Below, piece by piece: positions 4,531-30,884 of a stretch of DNA of 32,127 nt. The notes beneath the pieces were generated by a model. It was not told the origin of the DNA. It searched no databases and saw only the letters and a program-made list of their open reading frames with translations. A program made the translations under genes and the position numbers. The stretch comes from a virus. Position 1 is the stretch's first letter; the number at the start of each line of letters is the position of its first letter. The stretch spans positions 1 through 32,127 of the IMG/VR virus record IMGVR_UViG_3300031977_003139. One strand, written 5' to 3'.

Positions 4531-4570
4531 ATATACCTCTCTAATTTCTTTAGAGAGGTATATTTATTTA
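4531..4570 (+). terminator. Rho-independent terminator after the chaperone gene
   Basis: A perfect 13-bp stem pairs 4531-4543 (ATATACCTCTCTA) with 4551-4563. The loop is 7 bases (AATTTCT), and a T-rich tail (TTATTTA) follows. It begins 2 bases after the stop codon of the frameshift extension, which supports that reading frame as the real gene end. Confidence 0.85.
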
Positions 4571-4572
4571 TA
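4565..4572 (+). promoter_or_regulatory. Octamer TATTTATA upstream of the tape-measure operon, possible promoter element
   Basis: TATTTATA overlaps the tail of the preceding terminator and ends 26 bases before the GTG start at 4599. It is the second of three intergenic copies. A promoter is expected here because the terminator just upstream should stop read-through. Assignment of the octamer itself is tentative. Confidence 0.3.
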
Positions 4573-15576: not shown

Positions 15577-16236
15577 ATGAAATATTGGGGTGACATAGAA
15601 GAGAAAGCCATAACTATATTTAACACAAGTGAGGATATAGAGGAGCAACATCAAGTTTATGTAAAGATTATAGAACCAGCTTTTAAAAAACTTGTAGAAA
15701 ACATATATTATACATACAATTTTAACAAAATACTTAACGATTTTGACCAGATAGAGCATGAATTAGTTACTCATTTGTACGAAAAAATAAATAGATTTGA
15801 TGTTACAAAGGGTAAAAAATCTTACAGTTTTTTTGGTACTATTAGTAAAAATTGGTTAATACAAAAAAGTAATAGCGTTAAGAAAATATATTTTATAGAT
15901 AGTGACGAGAAAGAAAACTTAATACATGATATTAGTATCAACCAAGACAAAGAAAAAAATAACAGAAATAACTTAATAGAGTTTTTAAAACAACTACCTG
16001 TCTTCTTGAATGACAAGAGTTTTAAAGATAAACTCAACAAGGAAGATAAAATGGTACTTGGGGTCGTTTCTGACATATTAGAAAATTACGATATGGTTGA
16101 TATTTATAACAAAAAACAACTATATCTTTATATAAGAGAAGCTACTGATTTACCATCTAGAAAGATTACTAAAACTATTTCCAAGATAAAGGGTAGATAT
16201 ATCGAAGCCAAAAAACAAATTATGGAGGTTTATTAA
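15577..16236 (+). CDS. Putative late-transcription sigma factor, gp55-like
   Basis: This 219-residue protein resembles T4 gp55, the sigma subunit that directs host RNA polymerase to late promoters. Residues about 27-105 fit sigma region 2: a helix IEPAFKKLVENIYYTYNF, then IEHELVTHLYEKINRFDVTK, then SFFGTISKNWLIQKSNSVKK. The order (F/NF, E-L/M, I-x-x-FD-x-x-K, Y-x-x-x-I-x-x-N, IQ/VQ-x-x-x, K) parallels gp55 closely. The C-terminal part (LYLYIREATDLPSRKITKTI) looks like a helix-turn-helix or winged helix, absent in that form from T4 gp55, which is shorter (185 residues). The start has AAAGGA 8 bases upstream. It sits between hub and spike genes with its own AT-rich leader. Another DNA-binding protein is possible. 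Confidence 0.68.
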   Translation: MKYWGDIEEKAITIFNTSEDIEEQHQVYVKIIEPAFKKLVENIYYTYNFNKILNDFDQIEHELVTHLYEKINRFDVTKGKKSYSFFGTISKNWLIQKSNSVKKIYFIDSDEKENLIHDISINQDKEKNNRNNLIEFLKQLPVFLNDKSFKDKLNKEDKMVLGVVSDILENYDMVDIYNKKQLYLYIREATDLPSRKITKTISKIKGRYIEAKKQIMEVY

Positions 16237-21760: not shown

Positions 21761-24700
21761 ATGGCTTTTGGATTATCCCTAAATGATTTAACAAAATCTC
21801 TTGAAACAGCAGGGTCTGCTAGTGGAGACTTAGTTACTCTATCGATGTTTGGTAGAGATAGTGAGTCTATACCTTTAGTAGATTATGGTGATTTTTCTAA
21901 TCATATGATTTTTGGTGATGCCAAGAGAAGATCAAGAATAGCTATACAAAGAATGGTAGATGATTACCCAATTGGTAAAAAGGGTGGTTTTTACTCAAAC
22001 ACAGCATCTCTATCTTCTTTTAACATATATGAAGTAGATAAATACATAAAAGAATCTAATGGTTTTGATCTATGGATACTTGATCAATTCGGTAAATCAA
22101 GCACTGCTTATGGAGCCGCTGAAAAAGCCCTAACAGCTGCAGCGACGAACGAGTATGGAGAAACTGTACCTCTCATAATAGTGCATAGAGATCAGAACAA
22201 TCTTTTGCATAACACATCACAAACAGCTATGGAAGAATACATAACTATTCTGGCTGAGAAATATGAAGATGAATCAACAGTTTTAATAGATAGAACTCCA
22301 GGTACAGGTACTAGCATATTTGTAACTGCAGATGGTGGGGTCGAATCAATAAACTTAGAGTACGGTAATCAAGAAGAAGTTTCTGTAAATAGAAACAACG
22401 CTATGAAAAATATGTTACCAGAAATAATGTTTCTTGGTGATGATGAAGAAAATATAGAAAACTTATTAGCTATTGTTGCTGAGCAATTTGATGAATTGCA
22501 AACTTATATAGATCAAATAGAACACATCAAAACCATAAGTTACGACGATAAAAATAGAATACCAGATAAAATGCTTCCATTGTTGGCCAACGAATATGGT
22601 ATTGAACTCTTTGAATCGGCTGGAGCTAAATCAATTGATCGTTGGTTGTCTAATTCTTCTTCGGGAGCTACTTCAAGGGAAATAAACTATCAAGTTTGGA
22701 AGAGAATTCTTAACTCAGTAGTTTCATTACTTAAAACAAAAGGCACCAAAGATAATCTGAACTTGATAAAAAATGCATACGGTGTCAACAACAAATTCTT
22801 AAAGAGTGATGAGTATAGTATATTCAATAAGCAATACTTAGTTAGTGAAGTAGATGAAGTAGATGTGCCTGCTTTTTATGGGGATGGTACTGCCTATGTG
22901 AGAACAGTTGCTGGTAATAACAAATCTTCAAGAGTTTTTGACTTTGTTACTAATCAAGATTTCACCATAGAAATGAGAGTTGCAGCATCAGCAAAACAAA
23001 CTCATATGCTGATGAAGAACCCATCGTTTGAAATAACACTAAATGACCAAGGCAGAGTAAGATTCTTGCACCTAATAGATGGAAGTGTTGACGTACAAAC
23101 ACCTCAAGGTAGCTTATCAAGTCTAATACAATCACAAGACACTTTCTTTAATGTTGCAGTGACAAGACAGGATGATGATCTTACAGTTTACACAATGGCT
23201 CTTTCAGCATCACCAACTGGCGGAACAGATCAAGTTTTTGTAGAGAAAAATAGTTTAAATCTGGCTCAGATTTCTGATCTATCTTTTGACACTGCAGGCG
23301 CTACTGTCAACCCGCCCGGTGGGTCTTCTACTTTTGAAACATATTTTCCTGGTCGAGATGGAGACTTTAATGGTTTTATGCAGGAGGTTAGGGTTTGGAG
23401 TGCGGCCCTATCTGAAGAAGACCTTAAACAACATACAAGAAACTTTGAATCTATAACTTTTCAATCATCAACAGGTACACCTTATTTCGCCGATTGGTAC
23501 AGTTTATCAGCTCAGTGGAAATTAAAAGAGAATGTAGTCTTAGCCGATCCATTTAATTATATACAGAACTCAGCAACAGCTGAAGCATCCTTGTACAATA
23601 GTAATACTGCGGAGCCGGTTAATTTTGGAGTAGATAAAAGATACAAAACATTTACCAACTTAAAGAAAATAAATGAGTGGTATCCAGCTGGCTTCAATAG
23701 AGATAATGATAAGGTTATTTACGAGGATGGTATAGAGGATGAATTAGAAGACTCTAGCTATGTCTCTATGCACTTTACACCTATAGAAACTCTTAATAGT
23801 TTTATAAAGAACAGTACAACAAAGTTAAACTTACCTAGATTGTTAGGTAACGCAGATCAACTATATGATAAAAAATACAGTGGCGAATTCAGTGATCTTT
23901 GGCACGATATCATAAAAAGACACAGTACATCTGGAGAAAGTGTCTTTGCAGATATATATGTTAATGATGTTCTGACACAAACAGAATTGGAAAACATAAA
24001 GAGGGGAAATAGCTCCAGACCTTTAGTTGATATAAACACTTTTATAAAAGCTATGGGCAATTTTAATGATGTACTTGGTGGGATATTTAACTTCTCTGAG
24101 CAATTCTTACCAGCCAAGTCTAGCTTACTATCAAAAGGGGTTTTGGTTGAGCCTCATATACTTGAAAGAAGCAAGATGGAAAGAAGAATCGGTTTTAGAA
24201 AAGGCACTGATGATGGATATATTGGAGAACCAGATTCTAACCCAACAAACATAGATGTTGTTTTAACCGTTGAGGCCGCCTCAAACGGTACAGAATCAAC
24301 GACCTTGGTTGTACCTAATACATCGGCCTTGGAAGTTGGAGCTACGGTCTCTGGAACTAATATAGAACCAGACACCACTATAGATTCTATAACCGATGGA
24401 ACAACTATAGAATTAAGTATAGCTCACGCCGTATTCTCATCAGATGAAGATATAACATTTACTCTACCCTTAAAATCATTTCCTTATTCTTCGCCGGGAG
24501 AAAAAACTTTTTCAAGAGAGTATAGGTCTTCAGATTCTAACATTATACCTAATGTAACTGTGCACAGAGATTCGCAGTTTAACATAGTTAACAAATATAT
24601 ACCTAGTGCTTTAGAGTTTCAAGATAGTAGTAGTACTAACATAGTGGCTCTTCACCCTACAGCTTCTACTACAGCTCATTTCCAAGGTTATAAATACCAA

Positions 24701-25360
24701 GGGATACAACCATTTCTAAATAGGTCGTTAACATCTGAGAGGTCTTTGCCATCTGTGACTAAGTTTAGTACTACTAATTCTCCAAGAATATCTGATGCTA
24801 GAGTAGCTAAACTGTTACCTGTTAATAGAACTCCTGCTAACCCAGAAGAAACAGAAATAGATGTTACTTTGGATAACTTAATCATAAACCCAACGGTTTC
24901 TCCCACAGCAGCTGCTGGTTTTATCAGTGGTCGGGTTAGATTATTATCAAAAGGTCTTCCTTTTAATAGTGAAACTCCTACTTTTAGATTTGAATTCCCC
25001 ACCTCTGCAGATGGAACTAATCTTTTTATAGCTGAGATGGGAGATTTAGATGCAGGTTTAGGCAGAATAATTGAAAATATCGACAACACTTTTGTTACAA
25101 ATGTTAACAAAAACGATGTACAAATGCGTTTAACATTAAACTCAGTTGTAACATCCCTTTCAGCTGTAGGGCCGGGAGTTACGGAGAATATGGTAAACGA
25201 CTCTAAACAAGGTTCTTTGGGTGTTTTACCTATAAGAATAACAAATTTGTTTAATGATAACACTCAGATAGTAAGAGTGGCTATAAATGCCATAGAAAAT
25301 GATAATGCTGACATATTAACGCAGTTAGCAGATCAAGGTGGCGTCACACTAGAAAGCTAA
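21761..25360 (+). CDS. Baseplate wedge protein, gp7/gpI-like, with LamG-like insertion
   Basis: This 1199-residue protein has DYGDFSNHMIFGDAKRRS near residue 42. Residues 214-342 carry the gpI-type pattern (LPEIMFLGDDEENIENLL, FDELQTYIDQI, IPDKMLPLLANEYGIELF, WKRILNSVVSLLKTKGTKD). Residues 368-570 form a LamG/concanavalin-like domain (start AFYGDGTAYVRT, end GFMQEVRVWSAALSEEDL). A region near 650-800 (HFTPIETLNSFI, then FSEQFLPAKSSLLSKGVLVE and ILERSKMERR) is typical of large T4-like marine phage wedge proteins. Residues 829-907 contain a beta-module also found in the sheath. It follows the gp6-like set, as gp7/gpI does elsewhere. It probably bridges wedge and fibres. The overall call is firm; the lectin role is inferred from fold pattern. 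Confidence 0.8.
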   Translation: MAFGLSLNDLTKSLETAGSASGDLVTLSMFGRDSESIPLVDYGDFSNHMIFGDAKRRSRIAIQRMVDDYPIGKKGGFYSNTASLSSFNIYEVDKYIKESNGFDLWILDQFGKSSTAYGAAEKALTAAATNEYGETVPLIIVHRDQNNLLHNTSQTAMEEYITILAEKYEDESTVLIDRTPGTGTSIFVTADGGVESINLEYGNQEEVSVNRNNAMKNMLPEIMFLGDDEENIENLLAIVAEQFDELQTYIDQIEHIKTISYDDKNRIPDKMLPLLANEYGIELFESAGAKSIDRWLSNSSSGATSREINYQVWKRILNSVVSLLKTKGTKDNLNLIKNAYGVNNKFLKSDEYSIFNKQYLVSEVDEVDVPAFYGDGTAYVRTVAGNNKSSRVFDFVTNQDFTIEMRVAASAKQTHMLMKNPSFEITLNDQGRVRFLHLIDGSVDVQTPQGSLSSLIQSQDTFFNVAVTRQDDDLTVYTMALSASPTGGTDQVFVEKNSLNLAQISDLSFDTAGATVNPPGGSSTFETYFPGRDGDFNGFMQEVRVWSAALSEEDLKQHTRNFESITFQSSTGTPYFADWYSLSAQWKLKENVVLADPFNYIQNSATAEASLYNSNTAEPVNFGVDKRYKTFTNLKKINEWYPAGFNRDNDKVIYEDGIEDELEDSSYVSMHFTPIETLNSFIKNSTTKLNLPRLLGNADQLYDKKYSGEFSDLWHDIIKRHSTSGESVFADIYVNDVLTQTELENIKRGNSSRPLVDINTFIKAMGNFNDVLGGIFNFSEQFLPAKSSLLSKGVLVEPHILERSKMERRIGFRKGTDDGYIGEPDSNPTNIDVVLTVEAASNGTESTTLVVPNTSALEVGATVSGTNIEPDTTIDSITDGTTIELSIAHAVFSSDEDITFTLPLKSFPYSSPGEKTFSREYRSSDSNIIPNVTVHRDSQFNIVNKYIPSALEFQDSSSTNIVALHPTASTTAHFQGYKYQGIQPFLNRSLTSERSLPSVTKFSTTNSPRISDARVAKLLPVNRTPANPEETEIDVTLDNLIINPTVSPTAAAGFISGRVRLLSKGLPFNSETPTFRFEFPTSADGTNLFIAEMGDLDAGLGRIIENIDNTFVTNVNKNDVQMRLTLNSVVTSLSAVGPGVTENMVNDSKQGSLGVLPIRITNLFNDNTQIVRVAINAIENDNADILTQLADQGGVTLES
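24247..24480 (+). other. Beta-rich module in the wedge protein, shared with the sheath
   Basis: This part of the wedge frame encodes TTLVVPNTSALEVGATV, then DTTIDSITDGTTIELSIA and a final strand, matching in order and spacing the module at 1120-1380 in the sheath gene. The nucleotide sequences have diverged, so this is not a recent copy. It reads as a mobile surface domain used in two unrelated structural proteins. Confidence 0.6.
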
Positions 25361-25372
25361 AAGGAGTAAAAA

Positions 25373-26137
25373 ATGGAGTATCTAAATAAAGAAACCTTTC
25401 TATCAGAAAAGGGCGCGGATTATTTTAGTAAAAACAAAAGTAATATTATAGCCAACATAATAACCGCAGCTATAAAAAATGGTAAAAAGCCAAGAGAAGC
25501 CGTGGTATTGGATATTGGTTCAGCAGCGGGGTTTGTAGCTATTAATCTTTCTGAGTCATGTGAAAAGATAATATGCGTTGATAAAACAAGATATTACCAA
25601 CCAAGTTTAAGAGAAAATGTTTTACATAACAAAATAAGAAATATACAACACAATACTGTGGATTCTGTAGAAGAAATAGAAAAAATTATAAGAAATCTTA
25701 ATGAGTCTTATGAGATCGATGCTGTTTTTATAAATAGGGATTATCTTCCTTTGAAAGATGTTGCAAAGATGAGTGTTGTACCCGGTAGGTATCTTTCCAT
25801 ATTCTGTGATAACGGTACAGAAATAGAACATATCCCTGTGGGTTTGGCAGATAAGAGAAATTATATTTACAAACCAAAGCTTGACGAACCTGTAGAACCT
25901 GTAGTAGAAACAAAAGAGGAACCTGTTGTAACCACACCACCTCCTATTAAAGAAGCTTCTGTTGTTGTTAACAAAGAGGAGGCTGTTCCAGAGTACGCCG
26001 CTATTAAAGAGGAAACTTTCAAAGAGGAAGTCAAAGAGGATATTAAACCTAAGTCTAAATCTAAACCCAAAGCTAAACCAAAAGCTAAGAGGAAGAGAAC
26101 ACCAAAGAAAAAAATACAGGATGACAAAAAGGAATAA
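25373..26137 (+). CDS. Rossmann-fold methyltransferase-like protein with basic tail
   Basis: This 254-residue protein has a class I methyltransferase motif I at residues 44-53 (VVLDIGSAAG) and an acidic residue after the second strand (ICVDK, D70), as in SAM-binding proteins. A later strand reads IDAVFINRDYLPL (near 120); it lacks a clear NPPY or DPPY motif, so the substrate is unknown and activity may be lost. From about residue 168 the protein is disordered, first proline/glutamate/valine-rich (EPVEPVVETKEEPVV), then strongly basic in the last 30 residues (KPKSKSKPKAKPKAKRKR), like a histone H1 tail. GGAG lies upstream of the ATG. It is placed between the wedge and fibre-region genes, which is unusual. 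A virion or DNA-binding role is inference. Confidence 0.6.
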   Translation: MEYLNKETFLSEKGADYFSKNKSNIIANIITAAIKNGKKPREAVVLDIGSAAGFVAINLSESCEKIICVDKTRYYQPSLRENVLHNKIRNIQHNTVDSVEEIEKIIRNLNESYEIDAVFINRDYLPLKDVAKMSVVPGRYLSIFCDNGTEIEHIPVGLADKRNYIYKPKLDEPVEPVVETKEEPVVTTPPPIKEASVVVNKEEAVPEYAAIKEETFKEEVKEDIKPKSKSKPKAKPKAKRKRTPKKKIQDDKKE

Positions 26138-26153: not shown

Positions 26154-26161
26154 TATTTATA
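26154..26161 (+). promoter_or_regulatory. Octamer TATTTATA upstream of the fibre-region genes, possible promoter element
   Basis: This is the third intergenic copy of TATTTATA, in a 91-base gap that also holds a 15-base near-palindrome (TATTAAAATTTAATA, 26172-26186). The octamer ends 67 bases before the GTG start. The gap has no convincing terminator. The size of the gap, in a region where others are under 20 bases, suggests a new transcript start. Confidence 0.28.
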
Positions 26162-26228: not shown

Positions 26229-26798
26229 GTGGCCTTTCTTGAATCTGGAAGTGGAGTTATAGACGCTATATTGACGCAAGCCGGGAGGGCAGCGCTAGCA
26301 AGAAATGATGGCTCCTTTAAAATAACCAAATTTTCATTTGGCGATGACGAAATAAACTATCAATTATACGATAGTAACAAATCTTTCGACCAAGATGGAG
26401 ATATATTAAATCTACCAGTTTTGGAACCTATCTCTGATGAAAACTATGCTCAGTTATACAGACTGATTAGTTTACCAAAAGGTACTCAGAGGATATCAAC
26501 ATTGAATCTAAAACCCACAGAAGCCACTGCTTCTTATGGAGATGATGTCATCATATCTGTAGAGACAATTAACGGTGATGACTCTCAAGGGTACTACGCA
26601 ACAATTAGAGATACAGGTATCGGTGTCTTACAAGAATCAAGAGTACCAAGAGATGAAGATAATATCGGTAGATTTGTGGTTAGAACTGGCGCAAACGCTG
26701 ATGGAAAAGTGGGTACAACTAAGGTTGACATTTTTGGTGTCAACTCTGGTGCACGAAGAGAGTTTACCTTAACCGTATCTTCCAGCGGTACAACCTAA
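26229..26798 (+). CDS. Conserved virion protein of marine T4-like phages
   Basis: This 189-residue protein opens with the pattern GVIDAILTQAGRAALARNDG, then FKITKFSFGDDEINYQLYD. I recognise this as a conserved N-terminal block of unnamed structural proteins of T4-like marine phages (form: ILDAVLTDxGRxRLAxGDGSFKIxKFALGDDEI). The C-terminal part (DVIISVETINGD to TLTVSSSG) is all-beta, possibly Ig-like. The GTG start has AGGAGG 8 bases upstream, the strongest ribosome site here, suggesting high expression. Its exact location in the virion is unknown; neighbours suggest the fibre or baseplate periphery. Confidence 0.72.
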   Translation: MAFLESGSGVIDAILTQAGRAALARNDGSFKITKFSFGDDEINYQLYDSNKSFDQDGDILNLPVLEPISDENYAQLYRLISLPKGTQRISTLNLKPTEATASYGDDVIISVETINGDDSQGYYATIRDTGIGVLQESRVPRDEDNIGRFVVRTGANADGKVGTTKVDIFGVNSGARREFTLTVSSSGTT

Positions 26799-26813: not shown

Positions 26814-27683
26814 ATGAGTTTAACAAATTTAGAACCAGATAGAGACATAGCCGAAGGTGAAGTTAATGTTGTGTCTAATTTTGAAATATTATCACCTACA
26901 GCCGCTGGTGCGAGAAATATAGTATCTTTCGTACCCTTTGCTGCAGCTACTGATTATATGTCAAACGCACAAAATGTGGCTACCAACACACCTCTTAGTG
27001 CGGCTTTTAGACAAATAACTAATTACTTCTTTTCTTCAAGTGCTGCAGCCCAAGTTCCTTTGTCTAATGACACAAACTCAACAACAAGTTTGTGTAGAGT
27101 TATTCAAGTGGGAAGAACAACGACAGATGATTCTCTTGTCTCTGGTTCAGTGACGGCAACAATGTCTTTCGGTCCTACTCAAAATTTGGTTTTCGTAGAT
27201 CAACCAGAGGAAAACATAACTTCAGCTATAGGTAGAAAAGGATCTATTGTTGAAAAGAACGATCCTACAAATATAGTTGGCACAATATTTTACGATTCTG
27301 GGACTATGATTTTTCATGGCGGTGAATCGGATACTGATTTCATTGGAGATCCTACTTCTGGTTTCGTTTTCGGTACAGGTGCTACAGCAGGTAAAATAGC
27401 TATTAACAATTTATCTTTTCAATCTCAAACAAAGATAAAAAGATCATTGTTTTTCTGTAGAGCTTTTAATCAAGAATTCAACTACACCAACAACCCAACT
27501 TCAATAGCTGATGCATCTTTGGGTACTATTACAGGATCTCTTACTTCTGCTCCTACTACATTTATTACTTCTATAGCTCTCTACAATGAAGAAGGGGAAA
27601 TGATGGCCATAGCAAAGGTTTCGCCACCAGCCAAAAAAGATTTTGAAACAGAACAATCCTTCTCTGTAAGATTGCAGTATTAA
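26814..27683 (+). CDS. Fibre-region structural protein A, with shared C-terminal module
   Basis: This 289-residue protein has GTIFYDSGTMIFHGG near residue 155. It ends with a module from about 205: LFFCRAFNQEFNYTNNP, then TFITSIALYNEEGEMMAIAKVS and PAKKD. The same two elements occur in the next two proteins, so the three form a paralogous set. The N-terminal part (FEILSPTAAGARNIVSF and following) has no partner that I recognise. It begins 15 bases after the previous stop, with AAAGAGA upstream. The family is a structural protein type seen in T4-like marine phages; the function is unknown. Confidence 0.68.
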   Translation: MSLTNLEPDRDIAEGEVNVVSNFEILSPTAAGARNIVSFVPFAAATDYMSNAQNVATNTPLSAAFRQITNYFFSSSAAAQVPLSNDTNSTTSLCRVIQVGRTTTDDSLVSGSVTATMSFGPTQNLVFVDQPEENITSAIGRKGSIVEKNDPTNIVGTIFYDSGTMIFHGGESDTDFIGDPTSGFVFGTGATAGKIAINNLSFQSQTKIKRSLFFCRAFNQEFNYTNNPTSIADASLGTITGSLTSAPTTFITSIALYNEEGEMMAIAKVSPPAKKDFETEQSFSVRLQY

Positions 27684-27698
27684 TATATAGATAATGAA

Positions 27699-29951
27699 AT
27701 GTTTAAAGAATTCGAAGATCAAGAAAAGAGAACAATTGCAAATTCATCAGAGTCTAGTATATCTTTAATAAAAGATAGCATAAACTCTACAGATGTTAAT
27801 TTCTTTACCGCTATAAGAACGCAGGGGTTAATAGATACATTTTCTATAGATAGCCCCGTAGCTTTTCCTTCTGGCTCAACGAAAACAAAAAAATATAAAT
27901 GGGACTTTAAGAGTAATAAGTTATTAGGTCAAACTTACGAAGATAGAGTAACAACAGGTATATATCTTAGTGATGCTGATTTAGAATATGATCCAGCTAT
28001 TACTGACAATATATCTCTGATATCGCATCAAGATTTGTTCAATTATCAAAAAGGTTTTTTGTACAGAGTTAATGATATTACGAAATTATCTATAACTTCT
28101 ATGTTTTCTTCTACCAACTCTGATACTTCAATTGATGTTTCAAGATTTATATCTATAAGAAGAAGCCTTTTCAAGGACTCTGTTAAGAAGAACAGTATAA
28201 AAATGTTTGCCACCAATGGTTCTGATAGCCTATCTGGGTTCTTAGACGGAGCTTCTGCTGGCACATTGGATTTAACTAACGCATCAGCCTTTACCTCAGC
28301 TCTTGATATAGCTAACCCATTTGCTGGTGATGGCTTTGTCAAGAACTCTTTCTTCTTTGTGAGAGGTGCACAAGACCAAGACGCTATAGATAACGTACAA
28401 GATGCCATAAATCACCCAGCTGCAGAATACAATATAGACAGCGCGTCTGGTTCTATAACTATTGAGGCCATAATAAGACCTATAAAAGACACTGGTTGCT
28501 TGTTTTTTAGAAGAATATCTAAAGTAGGAGATGACAGCAATACAAAAAACAATTTCATGAAATTAGAGTTGACCAGATCCCCTAGTAATACAGATGCGGC
28601 GATAAGGTTTTATATAAGAAACCCAGATAACTCTGGTGAGTTTAGTGAATCTTTTGCGGCTAGGAACGTACAAACTTCGGGTCTTTTTGTTCCTTCAGAT
28701 GTGGGTATTAATATATTTGACGGCAGTTTTCATCACGTAGTAGTTTCTTGGTCTATATCTGGTTACGATCAAAATACCTCGACCAGATCTGGAGCTGGAG
28801 CAGTAATGGGGTACGTTGACGGATATAAACTTCTGAATAGAGAACAGGTAAACCCAAGACTGCAAGGATCAGATTCAGCTGCAGGTCCAACAATACAGGC
28901 AAATATGTTAAACCAGAGAATACCGTTGAAAACAACTCCTTTCAATTGGCCATTTACTGGAAGCAATATATATATTGGGGCTTCTAATTTTAATAGAGAT
29001 AATGGAGATTACACTGGAGATAGATTTTCCCCAGCTCTAGAAGATGATTACAGAGTGGAAGGTAAATATGATGGCCAAATATCTCATATGAGAGTTTGGA
29101 ATTTAAGATTTAATGATGGTACTACGGGTTATTTTGATAATACAAATTTAGCGGTAAGTGATAACTCAGATGTATACAAAAGTTATTTTAATTTTAGAGA
29201 TGACTCTTTAACTGGAGGAGTGTCTGGACAAAATTTAGTCGCTTGGTGGAATTTTAACGAGTTATCTTCTGCTACAGCTACTGATGTTGCCAACCAAGAT
29301 GAATATGCACCTTTTTCAAACACTGGTACAGCTTATGGTAATTCATCAATAAAACTTTTTGATCACAAAGATATAACAACAAGAAATGTTTCTAACATAA
29401 TAGACCCATCTCTAAGTAGTGTTAATTCTATTCCAAGAACATTTTTAATGTATGATCAGATACCCATAAATAAACCTATAAATAATTCATATGATCAAGG
29501 AGCTATATCTATAAAAAACATTAACGATAATGTTAGAAGACTTGGGACTATTTTTTACGATATGGGTATTATAACATTAGATGGCCAAGATGAACAAAGT
29601 GGTTTTGACTTTATTGATCCAAACAGTGGTACAACAGGAAATTTTGGATTCTCTTCTACAGGTTTGGGTGGCGCCTTTAATGTGGAAAGATTTTATTTTA
29701 CTTCAGTTAATAAAAATTCTAGACTAATATTAGATTCGACAGCCTTGGGTGAAGAGTATAACTTCACATTTAACCCAACAGGATCTGATGATGAAACTAG
29801 TGAACCAATAACTGATACACCCATAACTTTTATAACATCTGTTGGGTTGTTCAATGACGAAAATGAACTACTAGCCGTTGCTAAACTATCAGAACCTGTT
29901 AAGAAAGATCAATCTTCTTCTATAAAAGCACAAATAAATATGGATTTTTAG
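27699..29951 (+). CDS. Fibre-region structural protein B, with LamG-like lectin domain
   Basis: In this 750-residue protein, residues about 243-470 form a LamG/concanavalin-like domain: SGSITIEAIIRP, then MKLEL and AAIRFYIRN strands, FDGSFHHVVVSWSISGYD, GYVDGYKLL, and GQISHMRVWN. LVAWWNFNEL follows at 514. The C-terminus has GTIFYDMGIITLDGQ and the shared module ending ITSVGLFNDENELLAVAKL, as in its two neighbours. The LamG domain may bind host-surface glycans, which would make this a receptor-binding or adhesive decoration protein. The ribosome site is weak. The start at 27699 is preferred because the ATG at 27694 is in another frame and ends quickly. Confidence 0.7.
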   Translation: MFKEFEDQEKRTIANSSESSISLIKDSINSTDVNFFTAIRTQGLIDTFSIDSPVAFPSGSTKTKKYKWDFKSNKLLGQTYEDRVTTGIYLSDADLEYDPAITDNISLISHQDLFNYQKGFLYRVNDITKLSITSMFSSTNSDTSIDVSRFISIRRSLFKDSVKKNSIKMFATNGSDSLSGFLDGASAGTLDLTNASAFTSALDIANPFAGDGFVKNSFFFVRGAQDQDAIDNVQDAINHPAAEYNIDSASGSITIEAIIRPIKDTGCLFFRRISKVGDDSNTKNNFMKLELTRSPSNTDAAIRFYIRNPDNSGEFSESFAARNVQTSGLFVPSDVGINIFDGSFHHVVVSWSISGYDQNTSTRSGAGAVMGYVDGYKLLNREQVNPRLQGSDSAAGPTIQANMLNQRIPLKTTPFNWPFTGSNIYIGASNFNRDNGDYTGDRFSPALEDDYRVEGKYDGQISHMRVWNLRFNDGTTGYFDNTNLAVSDNSDVYKSYFNFRDDSLTGGVSGQNLVAWWNFNELSSATATDVANQDEYAPFSNTGTAYGNSSIKLFDHKDITTRNVSNIIDPSLSSVNSIPRTFLMYDQIPINKPINNSYDQGAISIKNINDNVRRLGTIFYDMGIITLDGQDEQSGFDFIDPNSGTTGNFGFSSTGLGGAFNVERFYFTSVNKNSRLILDSTALGEEYNFTFNPTGSDDETSEPITDTPITFITSVGLFNDENELLAVAKLSEPVKKDQSSSIKAQINMDF

Positions 29952-29960
29952 AGATAATAT

Positions 29961-30884
29961 ATGACAGCTTTAACACCTATAATAACAAATAAAAATATTG
30001 AAAACTCTTATGTTAAGCTTAATCCAGAAGATACTGTCATAAGTAGTTTTGAAACATCAAGAACGGTAGAGTTTAATGGAACAACAGGGAGCACTGTTCC
30101 TTACGACCCTAGAGTAAATAGGTTTAACACCTCTATACCCGGTGTTTCTGCTTTTATAACAAGCATAACTGGATCTACTTCTTCTCATTATAACTCAGTA
30201 GCTCTATCTCTTTTTAATAAAGATTTAGATAGATCTTTAACATCTAACGATGTTCTTTTATGTAGAGATTTAGGAGTTGTTATTTTAAAGAAGATTCTTT
30301 TTGACTCTAAGATAAAAAAGGGTACTTTTACAATGACAGCTACCGGCACTAATGCAGCTGCTTTAGGTTCTCTTGACATAGAAAGTGATTATTATGATGA
30401 TGGGTACAGTAATATTGTTCAGAGATCTTCTGGTGATAATGTAGGTGTTATAGATTATGATCTTGGAATGATTGTGGTAACTTCATCCATAATAAGAGAG
30501 GTAGCTGTTTCCTTGACATCTGTTAAGTACGACACATCAGTAAAAAATACAAACATAAGTGTTTTTTGTAAATGTGATCCACTTGAATTAAACTATACTC
30601 TAAACAATACTTTTTTAGCTACTGCATCTTTGAGTAGTTTAGTTCCCGGTATAACAAAACAAGGCCCAGATAATATATATACTGGTGAACCATTAACTGC
30701 TTCTACTACGGCTTCAGTGTTTGATCAAAGATTTTATGAATCAAATTCTGACTTTATGCCATATATAACATCTGTTGGTCTATATGATGATGATAATAAT
30801 TGTTTGGCTGTGGCCAAATTAACTAGACCTTTGCAAAAACCAAGTGATTTACCAATAACTTTTAGAGTTTCTGTAGACATATAA
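29961..30884 (+). CDS. Fibre-region structural protein C, with shared C-terminal module
   Basis: This 307-residue protein has GVIDYDLGMIVVTSS near residue 160. Its final module reads ISVFCKCDPLELNYTLNN, then YITSVGLYDDDNNCLAVAKLTRPLQKP, which aligns with proteins A and B. Compared with them this module carries a 30-residue insertion between its two blocks. The N-terminal part (YVKLNPEDTVISSFETSRTV) seems unique. It starts 9 bases after the previous stop, with TAGAGATAA upstream. It is probably a trimeric or attached component of the outer baseplate or fibres. The function is otherwise unknown. Confidence 0.68.
   Translation: MTALTPIITNKNIENSYVKLNPEDTVISSFETSRTVEFNGTTGSTVPYDPRVNRFNTSIPGVSAFITSITGSTSSHYNSVALSLFNKDLDRSLTSNDVLLCRDLGVVILKKILFDSKIKKGTFTMTATGTNAAALGSLDIESDYYDDGYSNIVQRSSGDNVGVIDYDLGMIVVTSSIIREVAVSLTSVKYDTSVKNTNISVFCKCDPLELNYTLNNTFLATASLSSLVPGITKQGPDNIYTGEPLTASTTASVFDQRFYESNSDFMPYITSVGLYDDDNNCLAVAKLTRPLQKPSDLPITFRVSVDI

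Follow-up and report, generated by a model that had tools for sequence, protein, structure and literature searches.

The window analyzed here is a 32,127-bp virus record, a fragment of its phage's genome. The gene under study is a 254-aa ORF with an ATG start, which begins 12 nt past the stop codon of the gene for a 1199-aa tail protein (Table 1). Its product consists of a methyltransferase-like domain, a Pro/Glu/Val-rich linker (approximately residues 171 to 224), and a basic end (residues 225 to 254). The sheath, the tube, a hub-like protein, gp53, gp25, and a gp6-like baseplate protein were identified among the products of the surrounding genes. The setting is thus a contractile-tail cluster, and the location that a first-pass annotation of this DNA had given for the gene is right. 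A motif I-type pattern arose in 47 of 20,000 shuffles of the domain. A recent foreign origin of the gene was considered, and no sign of it was found, since the GC3 of the domain (0.24) is like that of the neighboring genes; in the tail, GC3 is high, probably owing to the Lys, Pro, and Glu codons there.

Table 1. Features of the gene, its neighbors, and the exchanged domain of two homologous loci
Feature	Position	Strand	Basis
Trimmed class I methyltransferase-like protein, 254 aa, with charged C-terminal tail	25373..26137	+	
Ribosome-binding site region (AAAGGAG), directly past the stop of the upstream tail gene	25357..25372	+	sequence
SAM motif I, VVLDIGSAAG, residues 44-53	25502..25531	+	family alignment
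Asp70 in ICVDK, acidic residue ending beta-2	25580..25582	+	family alignment
beta-4 motif AVFINRDYLP, residues 117-126	25721..25750	+	family alignment
beta-5, RYLSIFCDNGTEIE, residues 139-152; Asp-Asn pair present, hairpin strand directly after	25787..25828	+	window model and alignment
Disordered Pro/Glu/Val-rich linker containing EEAVPEYAA	25883..26044	+	model and comparison
Basic C-terminal tail, KPKSKSKPKAKPKAKRKRTPKKKIQDDKKE	26045..26134	+	
Upstream neighbor, 1199-aa tail protein, adjoins the gene in homologous loci	21761..25360	+	
Downstream neighbor, 189-aa tail-cluster protein (MAFLESGSGVIDAILTQ...)	26229..26798	+	bait for homologous loci
Exchanged N-terminal methyltransferase-like domain	L016:7273-7690, L021:7279-7690		

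Elsewhere in the tail cluster, a 219-aa protein (15577-16236) resembles a T4 gp55-type late sigma factor on visual inspection and had no match in Pfam or PHROGs. The sheath protein (2-2770) and the 1199-aa tail protein (21761-25360) contain a similar inserted segment (LVVPDSSVLAVGSEV... and LVVPNTSALEVGATV..., respectively). Three successive tail proteins (26814-30884) have in common the C-terminal motif ITSV.L(Y/F)...(L/M)A(V/I)AK..., which suggests gene duplication. The sequence TATTTATA (TATAAATA on the minus strand) is repeated in intergenic gaps (26154-26161, 2825-2832, and 4565-4572), with nine matches in the window versus 4.7 expected, and a similar motif is found 3′ of the gene in most homologous loci.

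Taken as a single sequence, the protein scores slightly below curated thresholds for a methyltransferase. It matched the Pfam family MTS at E 8.7e-5 with 22.7 bits, the curated cut-off being 23, and Methyltransf_24 (PF13578) was not listed for it in the Pfam search at E 10. In PHROGs it matched PHROG 11826, annotated "methyltransferase" (1.4e-3), plus one family of unknown function, and no tail or baseplate family was matched in either collection. DUF4041 and other sub-threshold Pfam matches were put down to chance. Its syntenic family gave stronger signals: 12 of 20 members matched Methyltransf_24 at E 0.1 or better (best, 7e-11), and a profile built from 18 homologues matched solved O-methyltransferases at E 9e-12.

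The AlphaFold model of the window protein has a confident core at residues 21 to 130 (block pLDDT of 71 to 93) and an unstructured tail of low confidence. Comparison with the PDB gave Z scores of 11 to 13 to class I methyltransferases, and Foldseek returned 167 PDB matches at E 0.001 or better. The model of a homologue, L003, was better (pLDDT of 78.7, pTM of 0.73), with Z scores of 15.2 to a Desulfuromonas O-methyltransferase and 14 to 15 to catechol O-methyltransferases. The TrmR tRNA methyltransferase was the top Foldseek match of both models, and the Z scores of the TrmR and COMT matches were tied. Foldseek also returned a Paracoccus complex I subunit, i.e., a methyltransferase fold inside a large complex. 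In the models, a Rossmann-like alternating alpha/beta core runs from beta-1 to beta-5, and the sequence has both motif I (D/E-x-G-x-x-x-G) and the acidic residue ending beta-2, Asp70, which would be expected to hold the SAM ribose. Motif IV of amino-type DNA methyltransferases (D/N/S-PP-Y/F) is absent, the window protein having VFINRD as its beta-4 motif, and the protein contains no recognized RNA-binding domain. A class I methyltransferase fold of the COMT/TrmR/Methyltransf_24 type is therefore well supported by profile, fold, and family evidence. This bears out the first-pass annotation, which had called the protein methyltransferase-like and proposed structure comparison and an HMM search: the fold is of the SAM type, and no plain structural family was matched. 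The three roles that it had suggested, namely, a modifier, an injected virion protein, or a dead structural part, all fit the sequence data. Its description of the tail as histone-like holds for the Lys/Arg-rich composition but not for ancestry, as far as the profile searches go, in which no histone family was listed.

When the window protein itself served as the query, no relative was found in IMG/VR or in 50,697 phage records, and two homologues used as queries likewise matched none of the phage records. Homologues were reached only via the downstream neighbor, which matched 126 IMG/VR stretches, 80 of which were kept. In the closest group (neighbor identity of about 54 to 65%), every contig with enough upstream DNA (26 of 26) has an ORF of 159 to 252 aa at this site, located between a tail protein of about 1,100 aa and a 189-aa tail protein. 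We read 19 distinct homologues, all of which have a motif I region and a charged C terminus; the remaining seven, present in near-copies, are ORFs that agree with these in length and place. The ORF with its motif and tail, first noticed in one sequence, is thereby confirmed, since 26 further viral contigs have a homologue in this position. Matches to the window protein were obtained by phmmer for ten of the upstream ORFs (best E, 1.4e-10). Further scans found the gene or its tail beside a contig end or gap in L004 and L020.

No searched record has more than one copy, which lies in the tail cluster. Neither the next relative, L028, nor any of the phages further away that carry the same flanking gene, Flavobacterium phage immuto among them, has the gene, which indicates that this tail type does not need it. 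The 189-aa neighbor found no relative in bacterial genome contigs, and the literature searches yielded no paper describing a methyltransferase within a baseplate cluster. In L018, an additional 163-aa ORF (L018:7499-7990) lies between the methyltransferase-like gene and the following tail gene, and the site may thus accept insertions.

Besides Met1, the most conserved columns of the 20-member alignment are Gly53, Asn86, Gly49, Val45, and Asp/Glu47, and the position of Asp70 is occupied by D or E in 17 of the 20 members. Residues of the SAM site are lost in the remaining three, namely, the beta-2 acid in L016 and L021 and both the beta-2 acid and Gly49 in L026. No trimmed member has a complete COMT/PF01596 site, composed of a beta-4 Asp and a beta-5 Asp-Asn pair: the window protein has Asn121 where most homologues have the beta-4 metal-binding Asp, and it is the only trimmed member with the beta-5 pair (Asp146-Asn147). 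As the SAM site is conserved and the metal site is incomplete, most members are likely to bind SAM and not likely to perform ordinary metal-assisted O-methylation.

Four homologues (L015, L018, L023, and L025) are long forms with the full C-terminal half, and L015 and L025 also keep the Asp...His and His-Asp motifs of Methyltransf_24, which are missing from the window protein. In the window protein and the other 15 of the 19 homologues, beta-5 leads straight into one further strand, so that alpha-E and beta-6 appear to be missing. In a complete class I fold, the C-terminal part would comprise alpha-E, beta-6, and an antiparallel beta-7. The L003 model has one strand directly after beta-5; in the window model, residues 148 to 185 have a pLDDT below 50. 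Long and trimmed forms are split in the gene's own tree (100/99), and the long forms make up one clade in the trees of both flanking genes. As the full fold is the one generally seen, we infer that trimming is the derived state.

All members carry a basic cluster within their last 60 residues, which ranks at the 93rd to 100th percentile relative to other ORFs. The highest value is that of the window protein, with 12 K/R in its best 20-residue window; among other ORFs of these loci, the 95th percentile is 6 and the highest count is 8. In L025 (L025:7026-7784), a C-terminal ROS/MUCR zinc finger (6.2e-7) replaces the plain basic tail. The linker motif EEAVPEYAA is common to the window protein, L016, and L021 despite a protein identity of about 29%.

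The gene evolves far faster than its neighbors, as judged by a median pairwise identity of 26%, the upstream and downstream neighbors having 48% and 67%, respectively. The omega values of the domain, 0.06 to 0.21 in eight of nine pairs tested, nevertheless indicate purifying selection in those pairs. The ninth pair, L016 and L021, belongs to a lineage with a damaged SAM site. These two contigs are about 100% identical over roughly 14 kb in which only the N-terminal domain of this protein differs (64% amino-acid identity, omega of 0.66), its tail being 95% identical. The domain was likely exchanged by recombination. Beyond this stretch, the pair also differs in parts of two genes, the gp6-like gene and the one two before it, so the exchange may be ordinary mosaic recombination; we therefore dropped it as proof of an arms race, and selection behind it is only suggested.

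Glycan-synthesis genes are present in two sister contigs but not in the window, itself a fragment. The first, G007 (109 kb), codes for GT1 and GT2 glycosyltransferases, a cytidylyltransferase, a PfkB kinase, and a carbamoyltransferase; the second, G005 (69 kb), codes for RmlD, a GHMP kinase, and a SIS-domain protein; and both have a heptosyltransferase-Methyltransf_23 fusion. Proteins of 806 and 835 aa with GT9 heptosyltransferase and Methyltransf_23 domains are encoded near the tail cluster in L120 (L120:17237-19654) and L125 (L125:7680-10184), on contigs that also carry sugar-nucleotide genes and, in L121, a carbamoyltransferase gene.

We tentatively favor an accessory, late-expressed factor derived from a methyltransferase, which would modify the virion or help assemble it inside the cell. 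According to this model, an O-methyltransferase of the COMT/Methyltransf_24 type would have given rise to an accessory SAM-binding protein, probably through a single acquisition at the tail site in one contractile-tail phage group, followed by trimming in most lineages. The protein would be produced together with the late tail genes and act in the infected cell during virion assembly. Its Rossmann core would bind SAM, and its charged tail would dock it on an acidic partner, i.e., a tail protein, a glycan-bearing intermediate, or a nucleic acid. That partner would be methylated or, in lineages without a SAM site, only held or chaperoned. Late expression, SAM binding, methyl transfer, and action on the virion are steps that we infer. 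A virion-directed factor is supported by the fold and family matches and the fixed site in all 26 complete contigs, together with the conserved SAM columns, the basic tail, and the omega values, and by analogy the glycan genes of the sister contigs and the Corndog gp35 precedent may support it as well. Against it stand the incomplete metal site of the trimmed members, the apparent absence of alpha-E and beta-6 from them, and the loss of SAM-site residues in 3 of 20 members. A domain that differs by 36% between L016 and L021 beside tail genes about 100% identical is also odd for a protein fitted to its neighbors, and the sugar clusters belong to sister phages, not to the window.

The protein might instead be a pseudoenzyme, that is, an assembly factor or a minor component of the baseplate that has no catalytic activity and binds tail proteins through its charged tail, a possibility to which we give less credence. 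The trimmed C-terminal half, the metal site incomplete in all trimmed members, the SAM-site residues gone from L016, L021, and L026, the position between two tail genes at every locus, and the complex I subunit among the fold-search matches would all fit. However, the SAM-site residues remain among the most conserved columns of the family, which speaks against most members being purely structural; phages at a greater distance that share the flanking gene do without this one, and it diverges far faster than the genes next to it. It is unlikely that the trimmed family consists of SAM-binding pseudoenzymes turned into a dedicated tail-assembly or injected factor of uncultured phages, in which the N-terminal domain can be swapped, the charged tail is conserved, and SAM serves as a ligand rather than donating methyl groups. 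At the other extreme, an ordinary cation-dependent O-methyltransferase of small molecules or sugars, present in the tail cluster by chance, is quite improbable. The full-length domains of L015 and L025 with their Methyltransf_24 pattern are what it would predict, but in the window protein the first metal Asp is absent and the alpha-E/beta-6 region appears to be so as well, the operon position is constant over deep divergence, and the tail is charged; trimming and metal-site loss likewise argue against such an enzyme.

A factor directed at nucleic acids or at the host is also conceivable, though we consider it somewhat doubtful and less likely than a non-catalytic part. Its basic tail would bind DNA or RNA, and it would modify or shield nucleic acid or a target of host defense, being made late or injected with the DNA. 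A virion-borne methyltransferase has a precedent in P1 DarB (PMC5512222). The basic tail of all members, the zinc finger of L025, the top rank of TrmR for both models, and the domain exchange in L016 and L021 beside unchanged adjacent genes point in the same direction. Nonetheless, motif IV (DPPY/NPPY type) and a recognized RNA-binding domain are missing, TrmR scores no higher than COMT, and basic tails can bind acidic proteins and membranes too.

Methyltransferase genes within virion structural operons are known but poorly understood. The family described here is distinguished from them by its trimming, its conserved charged tail, and the fast divergence of its domain. With about 20 divergent natural variants at one fixed site, the SAM site intact or lost, and a full-length sister group, it can be tested directly whether such a protein acts as an enzyme, a chaperone, or a component of the virion, and the swapped domain in a pair of near-identical phages hints at selection acting on some target.

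The window protein has in common with COMT (PF01596, Methyltransf_3) and the tRNA 5-hydroxyuridine methyltransferase TrmR the Rossmann core from beta-1 to beta-5, motif I, and the acid after beta-2, but it has Asn in place of the first metal Asp, appears to lack alpha-E/beta-6, and has an additional long charged tail. With Methyltransf_24 (PF13578), the likeness resides in the 12 matching family members and the motifs kept by L015 and L025, whereas the window protein has neither match nor motifs. DarB of phage P1 is a methylase-helicase carried in the virion (PMC5512222). Like our protein, it is a methyltransferase domain encoded by a contractile-tail phage; unlike it, it is an EcoKI/TaqI-like DNA adenine methylase fused to a helicase, neither of which is present in the window protein. 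A parallel in position is offered by mycobacteriophage Corndog (Cluster O), whose virion structural operon contains the O-methyltransferase gene of gp35 along with glycosyltransferases, which in the group of the window occur in sister phages. In the portions of the Corndog report consulted, the gp35 product was found in infected cells, the main analysis did not identify it in virions, capsid modification was proposed, and neither a trimmed form nor a charged tail is described (PMC4351075). There, the gene lies by the portal and capsid protease genes; in the phages described here, an O-methyltransferase-type gene likewise sits among structural genes, but at the baseplate.
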